NCBI GenBank assembly: GCA_022797995.1
Contig: JAAWLQ010000004.1
Span: 1-33,738, forward strand
DNA length: 33,738 bases
Direction: 5' to 3'
Source: Lachnospiraceae bacterium
GTDB taxonomy: Bacteria > Bacillota > Clostridia > Lachnospirales > Lachnospiraceae
Shown here: in pieces, positions 10,740-19,211 of the stretch
Position numbering within the stretch: the stretch's first letter is position 1
Layout: every line of letters begins with the position of its first letter
Position numbers and translations under genes: made by a program
The notes under the pieces: model-generated
Databases searched by the model: none
The model's input: only the letters and a program-made list of their open reading frames with translations
What the model was told of the DNA's origin: nothing

Positions 10740-11168
10740 ATGACGAATGCAGAAATAGGTAATAGAATCAAATATGCTCGTGACCTTAGGGATGCAACTT
10801 TGGATGATATCGCCAAAAAAGTGGGAGTTACAAAATCCACCATACAGCGTTATGAAACAGGGAAAATTACTACAATAAAGCTTCCTGTCGTTGAAGCAAT
10901 AGCAATAGCATTAAATGTAAATCCGGCATGGGTTGTTGGAAAATCAGATGAAATGGAACTTCCATCTCAAAAAACACCCAAAATCATGCAGTATTACGAA
11001 CTTCTCAATGACATAGGCAAGCATGAAGCCACGAAGAGGGTTGAGGAGCTGACCCTGGTTCCGAGGTATGTAAAGGAAGAGACTACATATGTAAAGGCCG
11101 CACATGCAATAGAAGGGGCATCAGAAGAAGATAAGAAATATGATGAAGATATTATGAAAAACTTTTAG
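10740..11168 (+). CDS. cI-like XRE repressor
   Basis: 'IGNRIKYARDLRDATLDDIAKKVGVTKSTIQRYETGKI' HTH; divergent to the cro-like gene. Confidence 0.85.
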   Translation: MTNAEIGNRIKYARDLRDATLDDIAKKVGVTKSTIQRYETGKITTIKLPVVEAIAIALNVNPAWVVGKSDEMELPSQKTPKIMQYYELLNDIGKHEATKRVEELTLVPRYVKEETTYVKAAHAIEGASEEDKKYDEDIMKNF

Positions 11169-11212
11169 TCCGTTTTATTGTACTCAATTTTTGTTACTGT
11201 ATCATAAAAGGG

Positions 11213-11680
11213 GTGATTTCTGTGCTTACTTACGATGATATATTGGTAGAAGCAGACGATAACAATCTGATAACAAAAGAGAAGCCATTAAAAGCGCACA
11301 AAGGTTTAATTGATGGAAGAAATATAGCAATTAAAAGGGATATGACGGAAACAGAAAAGAAATGCGTTATGGCGGAGGAGCTGGGGCACTATTACACTGG
11401 AACAGGAGATATCCTTGACCAATCCTCCATATCCAATAGAAAACAGGAGTTACAAGGCCGTATCTATGCATATGACAAGCTTATTGGACTTATAGGAATT
11501 ATAAAAGCATATAAAAACCGCTGCAGTAATCTTTCAGAAACTGCAGAATACCTTGATGTTACAGAAGAGTTCCTAGCTGATGCATTGAAATATTACAAGG
11601 CAAAGTACGGAAAAGGGGCCTACATTGATAACTATATGATTTACTTTGAGCCTTATCTGGGAGTGTTTGAAATGATATAG
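11213..11680 (+). CDS. ImmA/IrrE-family metallopeptidase
   Basis: 155 aa with 'KKCVMAEELGHYYTG' zinc-site signature; immediately follows the repressor. Confidence 0.8.
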   Translation: MISVLTYDDILVEADDNNLITKEKPLKAHKGLIDGRNIAIKRDMTETEKKCVMAEELGHYYTGTGDILDQSSISNRKQELQGRIYAYDKLIGLIGIIKAYKNRCSNLSETAEYLDVTEEFLADALKYYKAKYGKGAYIDNYMIYFEPYLGVFEMI

Positions 11681-11732
11681 TTTAAACCGCTATGGCGATT
11701 TAATAAAAATCCAAAGAAAAGAGGGAATTATT

Positions 11733-12530
11733 ATGGCACTTATCAACTGTCCTGAATGTGGAAAAGAAGTATCAGAAAATGCTACAACATGTCCTAACTG
11801 CGGAAATCCAATAAACAAAAAAGGGATAAGCGCAAAGACAACAGCTCCACTTCCTCCTCCGACCTATGAACAGATTCCCAAAAAAATATGTAAACATTGT
11901 AAAGCGGAAATTCCAAAAGTAGCAAAAGTATGTCCAAACTGTAATAAAAAGCAAAGCGGAATTTTGAAATGGGTGATCATAGGGGTTGTGGCTGTTGCAG
12001 TTATTGGAGCAGCTGCCGGAGGAAATGATGATAAACCAAAAGAAGATAGCAATATGCAATCAGAACAAAGTGAACCGCAGGAAATAAAAGAGAATGATAC
12101 AGATTCTTCCGAAACCAAACAGGAAGGAATACAAGTGGAAGAAAAAGATAAGTATCATGTGGGCGATATATGGGAAAATAAAACATTAAGAATTACATAT
12201 ACTTGTTGTTATGAATTCACTGACTACAATCAATACAATGCACCTGCTGATGGAAATAAAATCATATGTGCGGAATTTGAATTTGAAAACATAGGAAACT
12301 CTGACACAACAGTAATGTATACAGATTTTCACGGATATGCAGATGGGTATGAGGTAGATCAAAGCTATGCACCAGAAGGAACTGGGCTTGATTTTTCTGT
12401 AAAAATGTCTTCTGGAAGAAAAGGCACTGGAAAAGTAGCATTTGAAGTACCAGAGAATGCACAGGAGATAGAAATTGAATTCAGCCCTAACTTTTGGACT
12501 TCCGAGAATATAATTTTTGTATACGAATAA
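11733..12530 (+). CDS. Zinc-ribbon single-TM protein with DUF4352-like extracytoplasmic domain
   Basis: Two zinc ribbons (CPECGKEVSENATTCPNCG, CKHCKAEIPKVAKVCPNC), TM 'WVIIGVVAVAVIGAAAGG', C-terminal beta-rich domain. Confidence 0.75.
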   Translation: MALINCPECGKEVSENATTCPNCGNPINKKGISAKTTAPLPPPTYEQIPKKICKHCKAEIPKVAKVCPNCNKKQSGILKWVIIGVVAVAVIGAAAGGNDDKPKEDSNMQSEQSEPQEIKENDTDSSETKQEGIQVEEKDKYHVGDIWENKTLRITYTCCYEFTDYNQYNAPADGNKIICAEFEFENIGNSDTTVMYTDFHGYADGYEVDQSYAPEGTGLDFSVKMSSGRKGTGKVAFEVPENAQEIEIEFSPNFWTSENIIFVYE

Positions 12531-12535
12531 ATACA

Positions 12536-12686
12536 AAACCGCCCGGTGCGCCAACACCGAACGGCTTTAGATATATCCCGGAGGGATACACATTACTCAA
12601 TGATATTGTATCATCTCCGGGAGCAGCCTGCAAGCGTTTTTTCGCTGGCTGTTATTTTTATACTCAATTTTAAGGAGGATGATGTC
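12536..12686 (+). promoter_or_regulatory. Structured leader/attenuator-like region upstream of integrase
   Basis: AAACCG..GGTG/CACC..CGGCTTT hairpin; TATCCC-GGA-GGGATA (12574-12588) competing with TCCCGGAG (12576-12583)/CTCCGGGA (12615-12622); CAGCC..AGCG-T6-CGCTGGCTG (12624-12651) followed by TTATTTTTAT. Confidence 0.6.
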
Positions 12687-13682
12687 ATGAAAATCGAAAA
12701 AAGAGGTACTGACAGCTACCGCATTCGTAAGATGTATAAGGGCCAGATGTATACCGTTACCTTTGACCACAAACCCACCCAAAAGGAAGCAATGCTGGCT
12801 ATGGCGGATGAACTGAACAAAATAAAGACCGCTCATACTCAAATGACCTTCCAGCGAGCGGCGGAAAGCTATGTCGACATGAAACGCAATGTGCTCTCCC
12901 CCAGAACGATAAAGGAATATTCTGAAAGCGTGAATCGGTTCCCTGAGTGGTTCCGGAAACTACCGATATCTGATATTACACAGGTAGAGATCAATAAATT
13001 AATCAATGAACTTTCAAAGGGAAGATCTCCGAAGACTGTAAGAAATTACCATGGGTTCCTGACAGCGGTCCTGGGAACTTTTTATCCTAGTCTCAAGATT
13101 TCCACCACCTTACCGCAAAAAGTTAAATCTGAACCTTATACGCCATCTCAGGAGGATGTAAAAAGGATACTGGAATCTGTCAAAGACACTGCTTATGAGA
13201 TACCCATCACCTTAGCATGCTATGGAATGCGTCGATCAGAAATATGTGCGCTGCAGGCGGAGGATATTGAAGGGGATATTGTACATATCAATAAAGCTTT
13301 GGTTATGGATGAAAACAAAAAATGGGTTATTAAAAATACAAAGACCACAGAGAGTACCAGAGATATTATTATTCCAAAAGAGCTGAGCGAAAAAATCAGG
13401 AAACAAGGATATGTCTATAACGGATATCCGGAATCCATAACAAGATGCTTGACGCGTATAGAAAAAAAGATAGGGATTCCACATTTTTCCCTTCATAAGT
13501 TAAGGCACTATTTTGCTAGTGAAATGTCTGCTCTGGGAGTTCCGGAGGCCGATATACTTCGCATGGGTGGATGGGAGACGGACCATGTGATGAAGTCTGT
13601 CTACAGGCACTCTATGATGGAGAAAGAGGAAAAAGCTAAAAGAGATGCAGCCGAAAAGCTTCGGAATGTTCTTTTCAGTTAG
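12687..13682 (+). CDS. int: Tyrosine recombinase/phage integrase
   Basis: Catalytic motifs 'CYGMRRSEICAL', 'HKLRHYFAS', 'VYRHS'; AAGGAGGATGATGTC RBS supports the start at 12687 rather than 12546. Confidence 0.92.
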   Translation: MKIEKRGTDSYRIRKMYKGQMYTVTFDHKPTQKEAMLAMADELNKIKTAHTQMTFQRAAESYVDMKRNVLSPRTIKEYSESVNRFPEWFRKLPISDITQVEINKLINELSKGRSPKTVRNYHGFLTAVLGTFYPSLKISTTLPQKVKSEPYTPSQEDVKRILESVKDTAYEIPITLACYGMRRSEICALQAEDIEGDIVHINKALVMDENKKWVIKNTKTTESTRDIIIPKELSEKIRKQGYVYNGYPESITRCLTRIEKKIGIPHFSLHKLRHYFASEMSALGVPEADILRMGGWETDHVMKSVYRHSMMEKEEKAKRDAAEKLRNVLFS

Positions 13683-14168: not shown

Positions 14169-15020
14169 GTGCATTTGGACAGCAGAGATTATGAAAAAAT
14201 CCTGGACAGTATGCCTGAAACCGGCGTCTATGTCATTCAGGAAGAGAATCACAGCATATTATATTTTAACAGACAGGTACGGCAGGTATGTCCAGACATA
14301 CGGGAAGGAATGGCCTTCCATGATGTATGGGGAGGCTCCTGCGAAAATTGTCCCCTTAAGCTGATGCAGGGCAGGCAGGAATTTCGTTCTGTCAGATACA
14401 GTGCTCTGTTCGGCGGAGAAGTTGACATGATTGCAGCCAGAACAATGTGGAAGGATACCATTCCGGCTTTTGTCATTACGATAACCCCTCGTGCATCAGA
14501 TATCAGGGGCATACATAACATACCATGGGATATATCGGAAAGCAGCCGCCCCGCCACCTTTAGTGAAAAGGACAGTGATACTATAGGTCAGGGACTTATG
14601 CTGAGCCCTCAGTCCATGCAGGACAGAACTTATATTATCGCCAGTCTGAGCAGCCTTTTTTTCTCCACATATTATGTCGATCTGGAGCAGGATACTTTTC
14701 GCGTGGTATCTCAGCTCAGCAAAGTCGGTGATATCCTGGGAGAGAAGGTGAACTGTACCGCAGCATTGCAGATATATGCAAATAATTTTATCTGTGCCGA
14801 AGATCGGGACAGATATCTGAATGTAATGAACATTCAGAACTGGTCGGAAACCCTGCGTTGGTGGCATCCTTATGTGACAATAGAATATCGCACAATACTC
14901 GACAATCCCGATATCAGTTCGGAAGAATATGCCAGAGTGCGCGCCACCGCTGTGTTGGCTCGGACCGGGGCAGATGATTTGCCGAAAACGGTAGTATATG
15001 TCGCCCAAAATGTGACCTGA
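14169..15020 (+). CDS. PAS-like sensory protein without an obvious output domain
   Basis: PAS-type sequence 'KILDSMPETGVYVIQEENHSILYFNRQVRQV...CENCPLK'; upstream of REC-GGDEF. GTG (14169) or TTG (14175) start. Confidence 0.65.
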   Translation: MHLDSRDYEKILDSMPETGVYVIQEENHSILYFNRQVRQVCPDIREGMAFHDVWGGSCENCPLKLMQGRQEFRSVRYSALFGGEVDMIAARTMWKDTIPAFVITITPRASDIRGIHNIPWDISESSRPATFSEKDSDTIGQGLMLSPQSMQDRTYIIASLSSLFFSTYYVDLEQDTFRVVSQLSKVGDILGEKVNCTAALQIYANNFICAEDRDRYLNVMNIQNWSETLRWWHPYVTIEYRTILDNPDISSEEYARVRATAVLARTGADDLPKTVVYVAQNVT

Positions 15021-16076: not shown

Positions 16077-18275
16077 TCAGGCCATCTCTCTGGCAGCATA
16101 GAACATTTTCCGCAAGGTACAGATATCCCGTAGAAGGCTGTCCCTGTCCTCCCTTTCATGCAGCTTTCTGACCCAGGCATAGTATTCGTTGGCCAGCGGG
16201 GTAGTCAGCGCGGAGGTTTTACTGATATATCCTTTTCTGATGGCCTCATGAGATACACTTCTCATAAATTTCCAGAAATTATAGTAGGAAAGCTTGATTT
16301 TCGTCATATAGCCGGCGCTGTCCTCAATGACAAAGCCTTCGATTTTACGGCCTTCATATTCGTAATCAGGCTCCATGATGTCATAATACCAGTCAAAGAA
16401 TTCCTGCCAGCAGGCAATCTCAAATGCCTTCTCCTTGGTCTCCAGCCCGAACAATCCTGCCGTATGACACATATCACTGTATTCATACCGGGCAAATTCC
16501 ATCCGGTTATAGACAATATCCAGCAAAAACAATCTGCTCTCAGGATAGTCAATGATATGCGGATCATGTTCCATATCGACGCATTCGAAGACAAAGGATA
16601 CATCTTTTTCTTTACAATATTCCTTTATCCCTTCAAGATTTTCCGGAGTAACCTTTTTCCTCAGCATTTCCTGAAAATATCCTGCATACTGACTGTCTAT
16701 AGTGGACTTGCTGGCCGCAAAGAGGCTGTCCTCATACTCATTATAGCTTACAATCCCCAGAAACCCGTTTTCCTTTACATAGGCGGTCACAGGAAACTGC
16801 AGTTTATGCTGCAGCATCTCAAATTTCGTCTCCGGTCTTTCATTGATATTAAAGAATTTGTCATAGGCCCTGGCCACTACTTTTCCCTTTGCCGTATCGA
16901 GATACAGCCCTCTGGCTTTGGTGGTCTGGGCATCCCAGACTCTGTCATAAAACGCCTTATCCGTATAGTTGAAGGATGAGATATTGCCGAATTTCTTCTC
17001 CTGGATGTATTTGTTGCCGCGCAGGGAGATGATGGTATCCGCTATGGAGCTTTCCACAACGCCCTGCGCTTCCTGCATTTCCGGCGTCTTATATACTTCA
17101 TTCTCCATTTCGACACAGTGGATTCCCGATTCATTCACCTGTACGCAGCGCAGACAGCCACCATATTCCACCTGTCCTTCCAGGTTAAATACTCTGTCGT
17201 TTACCATTGTGGGCATTTGTTTTGTGTTCCGATGCCCGTGAATCTGATAACAGTTGTCCGGTGTCGTGTCAAAGAAAGTCTCGGCTATCTTTTCAAAATC
17301 ATCATAATTTCCCACACCCTTGATCATCTGCTCCGTGGCCACAAGGGACAGATTCTCCGGCAATGTGCTCAATCCTGCATGTGTGACCAGATAAATGTTT
17401 TCACCATATCTGTAATAGGCACACTGCCCGAATTTCCTGTACAGCTGCCTTACGTCCTTCTTGCTGATCCTCGCCGCATCCAGAGCAGGCTTTGTGATCA
17501 GCTCGAATTCCTTTGATCTTCCCGTACAGTCGTTTGCCCACAGCCAGAGCCACCTCTCGTGGTTCCCCTCCAGCATCAGCACATTTTTCCTGTTCATGAT
17601 GGAGATGAGAAATTTCACCACCTCCACATTCTCAACACCTCTGTCAATATAATCTCCCACGAAGATATACATCTCGTCATCTTTCAGGCCGCCGTTATCC
17701 TCCAGATACTTCTGTAAAACTGTGTTACAGCCGTGAATATCGCCGATATGATGTATCTTCTTATAGTTTGACATGTCAAACAGCTTCAGCCAGATGGTAT
17801 CCAGTTCATCCGGACGGATTACCTTGATTCCGGAAGGAATCTTCTGGGTTCTGAACCGGGAGTACATATTGTCGATAGCCTCTTCCGGCACCCTTTTAAA
17901 AGCTTCCCTGTTCGCATTTCTTCTCTTTACCTCTTCGATGGGAATATCCGTAAAGTCCACACAGTAAATCCGATAACGGTATGTCTCGCACATCTCCTTA
18001 TAGCGATTCATCTCGCTGGTCTTGGAATTCGTGGCGTCGATAACCGTAAAATCGCCTCTCTGCATCCGGATTTCCAGGATACTGAACAATGTCTTCCACA
18101 CTGTGCTGTCATTGCTCTGGCTGATACCTGTTGTCCCGTCTGCCAGCATCACCGGACTCTGGCACAGCAGCCTGATATCGTCCGCCGACAATGTATAAGG
18201 TTTTAAGCCATGCTGCGCAATCCAGGTAGACTTGCCGCAGCTGGCGGAACCCCGCAATAAAAGTAAAATTCTCAT
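16077..18275 (-). CDS. Three-domain RNA repair protein: polynucleotide kinase, calcineurin-type phosphatase, Rnl1-like RNA ligase
   Basis: Kinase P-loop RGSASCGKSTW and lid RRNANREAFKRVPEEAIDNM; phosphatase GDIHG, GDYIDRG, GNHE, THAG, HGH; ligase motifs KENG (K501), FVFECVD, EGFVIED, KIK. Confidence 0.85.
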   Translation of the reverse strand: MRILLLLRGSASCGKSTWIAQHGLKPYTLSADDIRLLCQSPVMLADGTTGISQSNDSTVWKTLFSILEIRMQRGDFTVIDATNSKTSEMNRYKEMCETYRYRIYCVDFTDIPIEEVKRRNANREAFKRVPEEAIDNMYSRFRTQKIPSGIKVIRPDELDTIWLKLFDMSNYKKIHHIGDIHGCNTVLQKYLEDNGGLKDDEMYIFVGDYIDRGVENVEVVKFLISIMNRKNVLMLEGNHERWLWLWANDCTGRSKEFELITKPALDAARISKKDVRQLYRKFGQCAYYRYGENIYLVTHAGLSTLPENLSLVATEQMIKGVGNYDDFEKIAETFFDTTPDNCYQIHGHRNTKQMPTMVNDRVFNLEGQVEYGGCLRCVQVNESGIHCVEMENEVYKTPEMQEAQGVVESSIADTIISLRGNKYIQEKKFGNISSFNYTDKAFYDRVWDAQTTKARGLYLDTAKGKVVARAYDKFFNINERPETKFEMLQHKLQFPVTAYVKENGFLGIVSYNEYEDSLFAASKSTIDSQYAGYFQEMLRKKVTPENLEGIKEYCKEKDVSFVFECVDMEHDPHIIDYPESRLFLLDIVYNRMEFARYEYSDMCHTAGLFGLETKEKAFEIACWQEFFDWYYDIMEPDYEYEGRKIEGFVIEDSAGYMTKIKLSYYNFWKFMRSVSHEAIRKGYISKTSALTTPLANEYYAWVRKLHEREDRDSLLRDICTLRKMFYAAREMA

Positions 18276-18288
18276 AAATTTTATTCTC

Positions 18289-19188
18289 CTAAATTTTTTC
18301 CTGTGGTTTCAGCAGCTGAGCAATCAGATGCTCCACTTCCTGCAGCTGCTCCCGTGAGCTCTCCCTGTGGCTCAGCCTGCGGTACTGGGAAGGGGACATT
18401 CCCTTCATGGCATGGAAAGCCTTCGTAAATACCAGCGCATCTCTGTACCCGCATGACAAAGCAATACTTTCTATGGGATAAGAAGTAGAGTCCAGCAACT
18501 CTCTGGCCTTTGTAATCCGAAACGTGGTGAGAAACTGTTGGGGGGACATCCCCAGATAATTCTGGAACAACGTATAGAGGTAGCTTCTGTTAATACATAC
18601 ATAATCCGCCACGTCCGTCACCTTGATGGGATTGCAGTAATTACTCTGGATAAAAGATACCGCTTTTTTCACATACTGGTTTCCCTTATCCTCTTCGTCC
18701 TTTGCCACAACTCCGGCGCTCTGGGCCAGAACGGACAGAAATACACCCAGCTGTCCGTTCCGACGCAGATCATCTGCCACACCGAACGTATTATGCTCCA
18801 TCATATCCCGGACAATGGAATAAAGCTCCTGATCCCTCTCACAGGAGAAAATGGGATGTCTGGCCGACAGTCCCATGGAATTCAGATATTCTCCCGCGCG
18901 GCTGCCGCCGAATCCCACCCACAGATAGCTCCATGGTTCCTTCTCATCCGCCTGATAAAAGGCCAGCTCATTGGGCTGAATCAGAAAGCCATAGCCCGCC
19001 TCCAACCGATATTCCTTGTCATGAAACCGGAAAATCCCCTTACCGCTGAGCACATAGTGAATCAGATAATGGGGCTTGGAAGCCGGGCCAAAACTATGGA
19101 GGCTTTCTGTCTGGGAACAGCCACAGCAATTTACATACAGACTTCCGACTTTATCGTTCTCAAAGTCCAGCTTAAACGCTTTCTCCAT
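18289..19188 (-). CDS. AraC-family transcriptional regulator
   Basis: N-terminal cupin-like AraC binding domain; C-terminal 'VTDVADYVCINRSYLYTLFQNYLGMSPQQFLTTFRITKARELL ... GYRDALVFTKAFHAMKGMSPSQYRR'. AAAGGTGG RBS supports start 19188. Confidence 0.93.
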   Translation of the reverse strand: MEKAFKLDFENDKVGSLYVNCCGCSQTESLHSFGPASKPHYLIHYVLSGKGIFRFHDKEYRLEAGYGFLIQPNELAFYQADEKEPWSYLWVGFGGSRAGEYLNSMGLSARHPIFSCERDQELYSIVRDMMEHNTFGVADDLRRNGQLGVFLSVLAQSAGVVAKDEEDKGNQYVKKAVSFIQSNYCNPIKVTDVADYVCINRSYLYTLFQNYLGMSPQQFLTTFRITKARELLDSTSYPIESIALSCGYRDALVFTKAFHAMKGMSPSQYRRLSHRESSREQLQEVEHLIAQLLKPQEKI

Positions 19189-19211
19189 ACAGAAAACCAC
19201 CTTTCAGAAAT

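Follow-up and report, generated by a model that had tools for sequence, protein, structure and literature searches.

A predicted single-chain RNA end-healing and sealing enzyme of apparent phage origin in Acetatifactor-group Lachnospiraceae

Which function can be attributed to a gene that joins a polynucleotide kinase, a phosphatase and an RNA ligase in one chain, and how did it come to lie in a Lachnospiraceae genome? The question was raised by a locus in the window analyzed here, i.e. the whole stretch of 33,738 nucleotides of contig JAAWLQ010000004.1 (assembly GCA_022797995.1). Bacterial RNA end-healing is known so far mainly from Hen1-coupled complexes, and phage RNA repair mainly from the two-protein pair of T4. 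A widespread one-protein version, independent of Hen1 and of a separate ligase, would show how phages, and some of their hosts, undo tRNA-cutting immunity in one step, and a single enzyme that would both heal and seal RNA is a possible reagent. The analysis leads us to consider it probable that the gene encodes one chain that both heals and seals RNA ends, that it came from phages and that it is now maintained as an accessory gene in Acetatifactor-group Lachnospiraceae.

Gene and domain organization

The gene starts with an ATG at position 18275, preceded by AGGAG, which resembles a ribosome binding site, and runs over 732 codons on the minus strand. The preliminary description of this DNA, which gave no strand, had named the open reading frame and a series of motifs; all were found at the residues that it indicated. 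The features are as follows:

16077 to 18275, minus strand: three-domain RNA repair enzyme (kinase, phosphatase, Rnl1-type ligase), 732 aa, predicted from Pfam, phrog_8238 and the AF2 model
17787 to 18275, minus strand: predicted 5'-OH polynucleotide kinase domain, residues 1-163 (AAA_33; Pnkp kinase; T4 Pnk)
18228 to 18251, minus strand: P-loop GSASCGKS, residues 9-16 (motif and alignment)
17091 to 17786, minus strand: predicted calcineurin-type 2',3'-cyclic phosphodiesterase / 3'-phosphatase domain, residues 164-395 (Metallophos and fold)
17052 to 17090, minus strand: linker, residues 396-408 (low model confidence; split point in a viral relative)
16080 to 17051, minus strand: predicted Rnl1-type RNA ligase domain, residues 409-732 (RNA_lig_T4_1, fold, hhalign)
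16773 to 16775, minus strand: codon of Lys501, the predicted AMP-accepting lysine, aligned with T4 Rnl1 K99 (K in 61 of 61 sequences)

The domain order proposed earlier is borne out by Pfam as well as by the fold matches of the AF2 model. Three Pfam families exceed their curated cut-offs: AAA_33 at residues 4-142 (71 vs 27 bits), Metallophos at residues 173-301 (50 vs 21.5 bits) and RNA_lig_T4_1 (PF09511) at residues 453-665 (146.6 vs 28.3 bits), which is the sole Pfam match of the ligase part. In the kinase, D32 and R35 are spaced after the P-loop as are D35 and R38 in T4 Pnk. The phosphatase domain carries GDIHG (178-182), GNHE (237-240) and GHR (347-349), and the ligase domain KENG (501-504), FVFECVD (561-567), EGFVIED (646-652) and KIK (659-661). 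The catalytic motifs are complete in all three domains. The ligase domain is closed by a short helical C-terminus (residues 663-732), about 70 residues past the nucleotidyltransferase core. In 61 non-redundant full-length relatives K15, D32, R35, N238, H299 and H348 are invariant, as are the ligase residues R455, K473, K501, E564, E646, K659 and K661; the remaining catalytic residues are nearly so. H181 varies in some phage members (Q in three), a change that could weaken the opening of the cyclic phosphate in these proteins. Pairwise dN/dS ranges from 0.03 to 0.16, host copies included, which excludes a chance or decayed reading frame.

The AF2 model has a mean pLDDT of 92.1 and is poor only at linker residues 400-407. 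A viral relative (L120:4992-7258) is split at this very linker into two frames, one for kinase and phosphatase and one for the ligase, which share 4 bases; this supports a modular reading of the enzyme.

Unusual layouts were observed in three other relatives. At the viral locus L099:4002-8135 (IMG/VR 3300029959_000005), insertions resembling inteins were seen at two sites. The first, in the kinase P-loop (RGAPA[C...TGN]CGKS), has a LAGLIDADG match, and the second lies in the GNHE motif of the phosphatase ([C...TGN]C); both begin with Cys and end with TGN before a Cys. In viral locus L118:4971-6908 the phosphatase domain is interrupted by a long insertion that looks helical, and the ligase frame stops early. 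On an Aneurinibacillus plasmid (L126:5001-6209), a kinase-phosphatase without ligase is followed, with a 4-base overlap, by a gene for an HD-domain protein.

Comparison with known RNA repair enzymes

The preliminary description held that the ligase half is closer to T4 Rnl1 than to the ligase of Clostridium thermocellum Pnkp. Structure and profile comparisons agree with this; among solved structures, the ligase domain of the fungal enzyme Trl1 is closer still. In a Foldseek search of the PDB with the AF2 model, the first matches were fungal Trl1 ligase domains (9qw7, 8rbj, 6n0t; E about 1e-16), followed by T4 Rnl1 (2c5u; E 4e-12). Ranked after T4 Rnl1 were lambda phosphatase (1g5b), for the phosphatase domain, and the kinase (4gp6, 4mde and 4jst; E about 1e-9) and phosphatase (4j6o; E 2.5e-9) of C. 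thermocellum Pnkp. The kinase domain also matched C. thermocellum Pnkp kinase 4gp7 by sequence.

A profile built from 54 relatives was then compared with named references by hhalign. The Pnkp of Deinococcus psychrotolerans, which is of the C. thermocellum type, was matched at 99.7% (E 9e-27) over residues 4-381 only, i.e. kinase and phosphatase, and the ligase-part profile gave no match to the Deinococcus Pnkp ligase. The kinase part matched T4 Pnk, and the ligase part matched T4 Rnl1 at 97.6% (E 4e-12, 213 columns). In this alignment R455, K473, K501, K523, E564, E646, K659 and K661 fall on T4 R54, K75, K99, K119, E159, E227, K240 and K242, all of them important in the T4 enzyme. The TIGR04075 model of C. 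thermocellum-type Pnkp is reached with 81 bits against a cut-off of 750, over residues 4-398 only, which places the protein outside that family. As judged from sequence and model, the protein is a chimera of Pnkp-type healing and Rnl1/Trl1-type sealing parts, because its healing half matches Pnkp while its ligase half matches Trl1 and T4 Rnl1 and not the Pnkp ligase.

Pnkp-type kinases and phosphatases can also act on DNA ends, and one of the matched structures, 4mde, is the C. thermocellum Pnkp kinase bound to DNA, so that processing of DNA or other nucleic-acid ends instead of RNA repair has to be weighed. However, the ligase domain falls in the RNA-ligase families Rnl1 and Trl1, and the histidine motifs of the phosphatase are those of a 2',3'-cyclic phosphodiesterase, the substrate ends of which occur in RNA only. 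We therefore regard a role on DNA ends as highly improbable.

If the enzyme acts on RNA, four characterized systems offer themselves for comparison. The C. thermocellum-type Pnkp has the same domain order and homologous kinase and phosphatase, but another type of ligase, which an insertion domain keeps shut as long as Hen1 is not bound (PMC4411300); the window enzyme has neither this ligase nor the Hen1 partner. T4 Pnkp and T4 Rnl1 (pseT, rnlA), whose kinase and ligase are related to those of the window enzyme and for which the same chemistry is expected, mend PrrC-cut tRNA-Lys by removing the cyclic phosphate, phosphorylating the 5'-OH and sealing (PMC3400036). They are two proteins with an aspartate (DxDxT) phosphatase (PMC3400036), whereas the window enzyme is one chain with a calcineurin-type phosphatase and a shorter ligase C-terminus than T4 Rnl1. 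Fungal Trl1 is likewise a single trifunctional chain and supplies the nearest solved ligase domain, but its order is ligase-kinase-cyclic phosphodiesterase instead of kinase-phosphatase-ligase, and its 2H phosphodiesterase leaves a 2'-phosphate needed by the ligase (PMC3400036). The bacterial Pnkp1-Rnl-Hen1 system of Capnocytophaga gingivalis also combines kinase, phosphatase and ligase, in three proteins forming a heterohexamer that includes Hen1 (PMC4411300); its Rnl corresponds to the Pnkp-type ligase, unlike the Rnl1 type found here.

Relation to a phage protein family

Over its entire length the protein matches phrog_8238, "RNA ligase" (744.5 bits, E 2e-223, residues 1-728 on 1-732 of 737). 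A tblastn search retrieved 113 phage records at a coverage of 80% or more, from SPbeta-like, Twort-like, Brochothrix, Alicyclobacillus and other phages; their annotation varies between RNA ligase, polynucleotide kinase and phosphatase. Proteins of this family, found in SPbeta-like phages, Twort and related Staphylococcus phages, Brochothrix A9, Alicyclobacillus KKP_3916 and Fusobacterium Fnu1, agree with the window enzyme along their full length in the content and order of the three domains. The window enzyme is 35-47% identical to those of the named phages and up to 80% to those of viral contigs; unlike these phage copies, its gene is chromosomal and belongs to a host clade. The family, which is large and intact, is thus already catalogued in databases, and its architecture differs from that of each characterized system. 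Literature searches in openly accessible sources found no characterized member; the window protein is a new host-resident member of a catalogued, apparently unassayed phage family.

From IMG/VR, 74 family loci were drawn. A maximum-likelihood (ML) tree was built of 61 sequences, 13 of them of host origin. These 13 are nested within an otherwise almost wholly viral tree, and the group of the window gene comprises 8 non-redundant host sequences and no viral members (support 95/90). Long branches make the deep order unsure and leave the host nesting unaffected. The host copies are apparently of phage origin, the clade of Acetatifactor-group Lachnospiraceae sitting inside the phage tree, and the earlier view of a specifically chromosomal enzyme gives way to that of an old phage family.

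Search for partner genes

It had been noted, correctly, that neither Hen1 nor RtcB is encoded beside the repair gene, and the wider search extends this observation. No Hen1 scored over the cut-off in the 15 carrier genomes; weaker matches were confined to the profile's methyltransferase half and were read as generic methyltransferases. RtcB, the usual bacterial alternative for RNA repair, is missing from the genome of the window and from 10 of the 14 other carriers, and present in 4. Since the genome of the window is 80% complete, an absence there alone is weak; the agreement across carriers is stronger. An RtcB gene near L009 was set aside, as RtcB was seen at no other family locus scanned. 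No PrrC-type nuclease was found over the cut-off in the carrier genomes, and weaker AAA_13 matches were read as generic P-loop or coiled-coil proteins.

The survey of homologue neighbourhoods suggested by the preliminary description yielded no hen1 in the DNA flanking the scanned family loci, although the control L124 was detected and the D. psychrotolerans Pnkp control has a Hen1 gene next door. It did yield tRNA genes beside a few phage copies. Two phage loci (L068 and L069) have 7 and 8 tRNA genes starting 72-121 bp after the repair gene, and phage Fnu1 (L048/L111), of an unrelated lineage, has 5 tRNA genes about 0.9 kb after it; most other phage loci have no tRNA gene within about 5 kb. 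These clusters are suggestive of a tRNA substrate.

Distribution and maintenance in the host

Among named genomes, that of Acetatifactor muris is nearest (93%). The repair gene is present in 15 of 101 congeners, in one other of 299 genomes sampled across the family, as a fragment only, and in one of 398 further genomes of the phylum. A remnant in a different genus of the family (G143:C149:42687-43214; L003, L004) consists of fused kinase and phosphatase pieces, with the middle and the ligase missing and the P-loop altered.

One gene adjoins the repair gene directly upstream:

18289 to 19200, minus strand: AraC-family regulator, separated from the repair gene by a 13 bp gap

The adjacency mentioned in the preliminary description is thus real, but it carries no functional clue: of 101 congeners, 37 have the AraC gene, most of these lacking the repair gene, and 6 of the 15 carriers do not have it. 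It was rejected as a functional partner. In one Acetatifactor clade the repair gene follows an aldo/keto reductase gene and this AraC gene. Relatives that lack the repair gene retain both, followed by unrelated genes, which indicates that the repair gene is an accessory insertion. Elsewhere it adjoins an AI-2E-type permease gene (L013/L020; read from its sequence) or an HD-GYP gene (L016/L017), or lies in phage-like loci (L015/L021).

Variable insertion spots of this kind, integrases close to L019 and at a distance of 2.4 kb from the repair gene of the window, a phage-rooted tree, and near relatives present both in viral contigs and at a matching Lachnospiraceae-type genome locus (L015/L024/L028, L021) would fit phage cargo in transit, i.e. 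prophage or island remnants that serve phage counter-defence without benefit to the bacterium. We consider this unlikely: the clade of 8 non-redundant host sequences has no viral members, the neighbours are ordinary chromosomal genes in the window, L005-L013 and L016, and dN/dS is near 0.04 between copies with dS above 1. As estimated from dN/dS values of 0.04-0.16 among them, the host copies are under strong purifying selection and hence maintained.

Such selection on chromosomal copies, together with the synteny common to one Acetatifactor clade and the lack of RtcB in most carriers, could also be expected of a housekeeping gene. The resident copy would then mend RNAs that toxin-antitoxin RNases of the cell itself, or stress, have broken, or take part in RNA processing, with no special link to phages or competitors. 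The patchy distribution given above and the very wide occurrence of the gene in phages argue against a housekeeping role, which we likewise judge doubtful.

Proposed mechanism

For the reading that we prefer, a maintained accessory RNA repair gene of phage origin, the following course is proposed. A transesterifying RNase would leave a 2',3'-cyclic phosphate and a 5'-OH. The calcineurin-type domain would open and then remove the cyclic phosphate to give a 2',3'-diol, and the P-loop domain would phosphorylate the 5'-OH. In the Rnl1-type domain Lys501 would be adenylated, the AMP moved to the 5'-phosphate and the break sealed. Sealing is expected to proceed without Hen1 and without an added 2'-O-methyl mark, because an Rnl1-type ligase stands in place of the Hen1-gated Pnkp ligase and no Hen1 was found. 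From sequence comparison and the predicted fold we infer the three activities and the Hen1-independence, and strongly so the chemistry.

The likeliest substrates would be tRNAs whose anticodon loop has been cleaved by anti-phage nucleases or by those of competitors. The self-sufficient action and the role against tRNA-cleaving toxins suggested in the preliminary description are thus plausible. This substrate and a counter-defence benefit are proposed by analogy, from the homology to the T4 enzymes and the tRNA-gene clusters beside a few phage copies. Counting against it, most phage loci have no tRNA gene nearby, no PrrC-type nuclease passed the cut-off in the carriers, and the C-terminal domain of T4 Rnl1, its tRNA-specificity part, is not preserved at length in the repair enzyme. 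A more far-reaching scenario, which we put forward tentatively, is that phages, in joining C. thermocellum-type healing domains to an Rnl1-type ligase, created a single repair protein independent of Hen1, and that a clade of gut Lachnospiraceae domesticated the product as a shield against tRNA-cutting effectors, in replacement of RtcB.

Other observations in the window and around host copies

PADLOC did not flag the repair enzyme as a known defence gene. In L017:624-9839 a Cas12a gene and repeats resembling a CRISPR array are followed downstream by the repair gene; this arrangement is absent from L016, which has the same downstream gene. In the window, positions 10740-13682 encode an HTH regulator, an ImmA/IrrE-type protein, a zinc-ribbon DUF4352 protein and a tyrosine integrase, and are probably a small integrated element or its remnant. 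At 14169-15020 a 283-aa protein lacks an internal stretch of its 540-aa relative in L005, the ends aligning at 72-78%. Several host copies have a tRNA-Pro (CGG) gene downstream, at a distance of 0.07 to 7 kb (L012:12273, L009:13518, L005:16296, L013:18612 and L010:19358), and its neighbourhood is possibly an integration hotspot.
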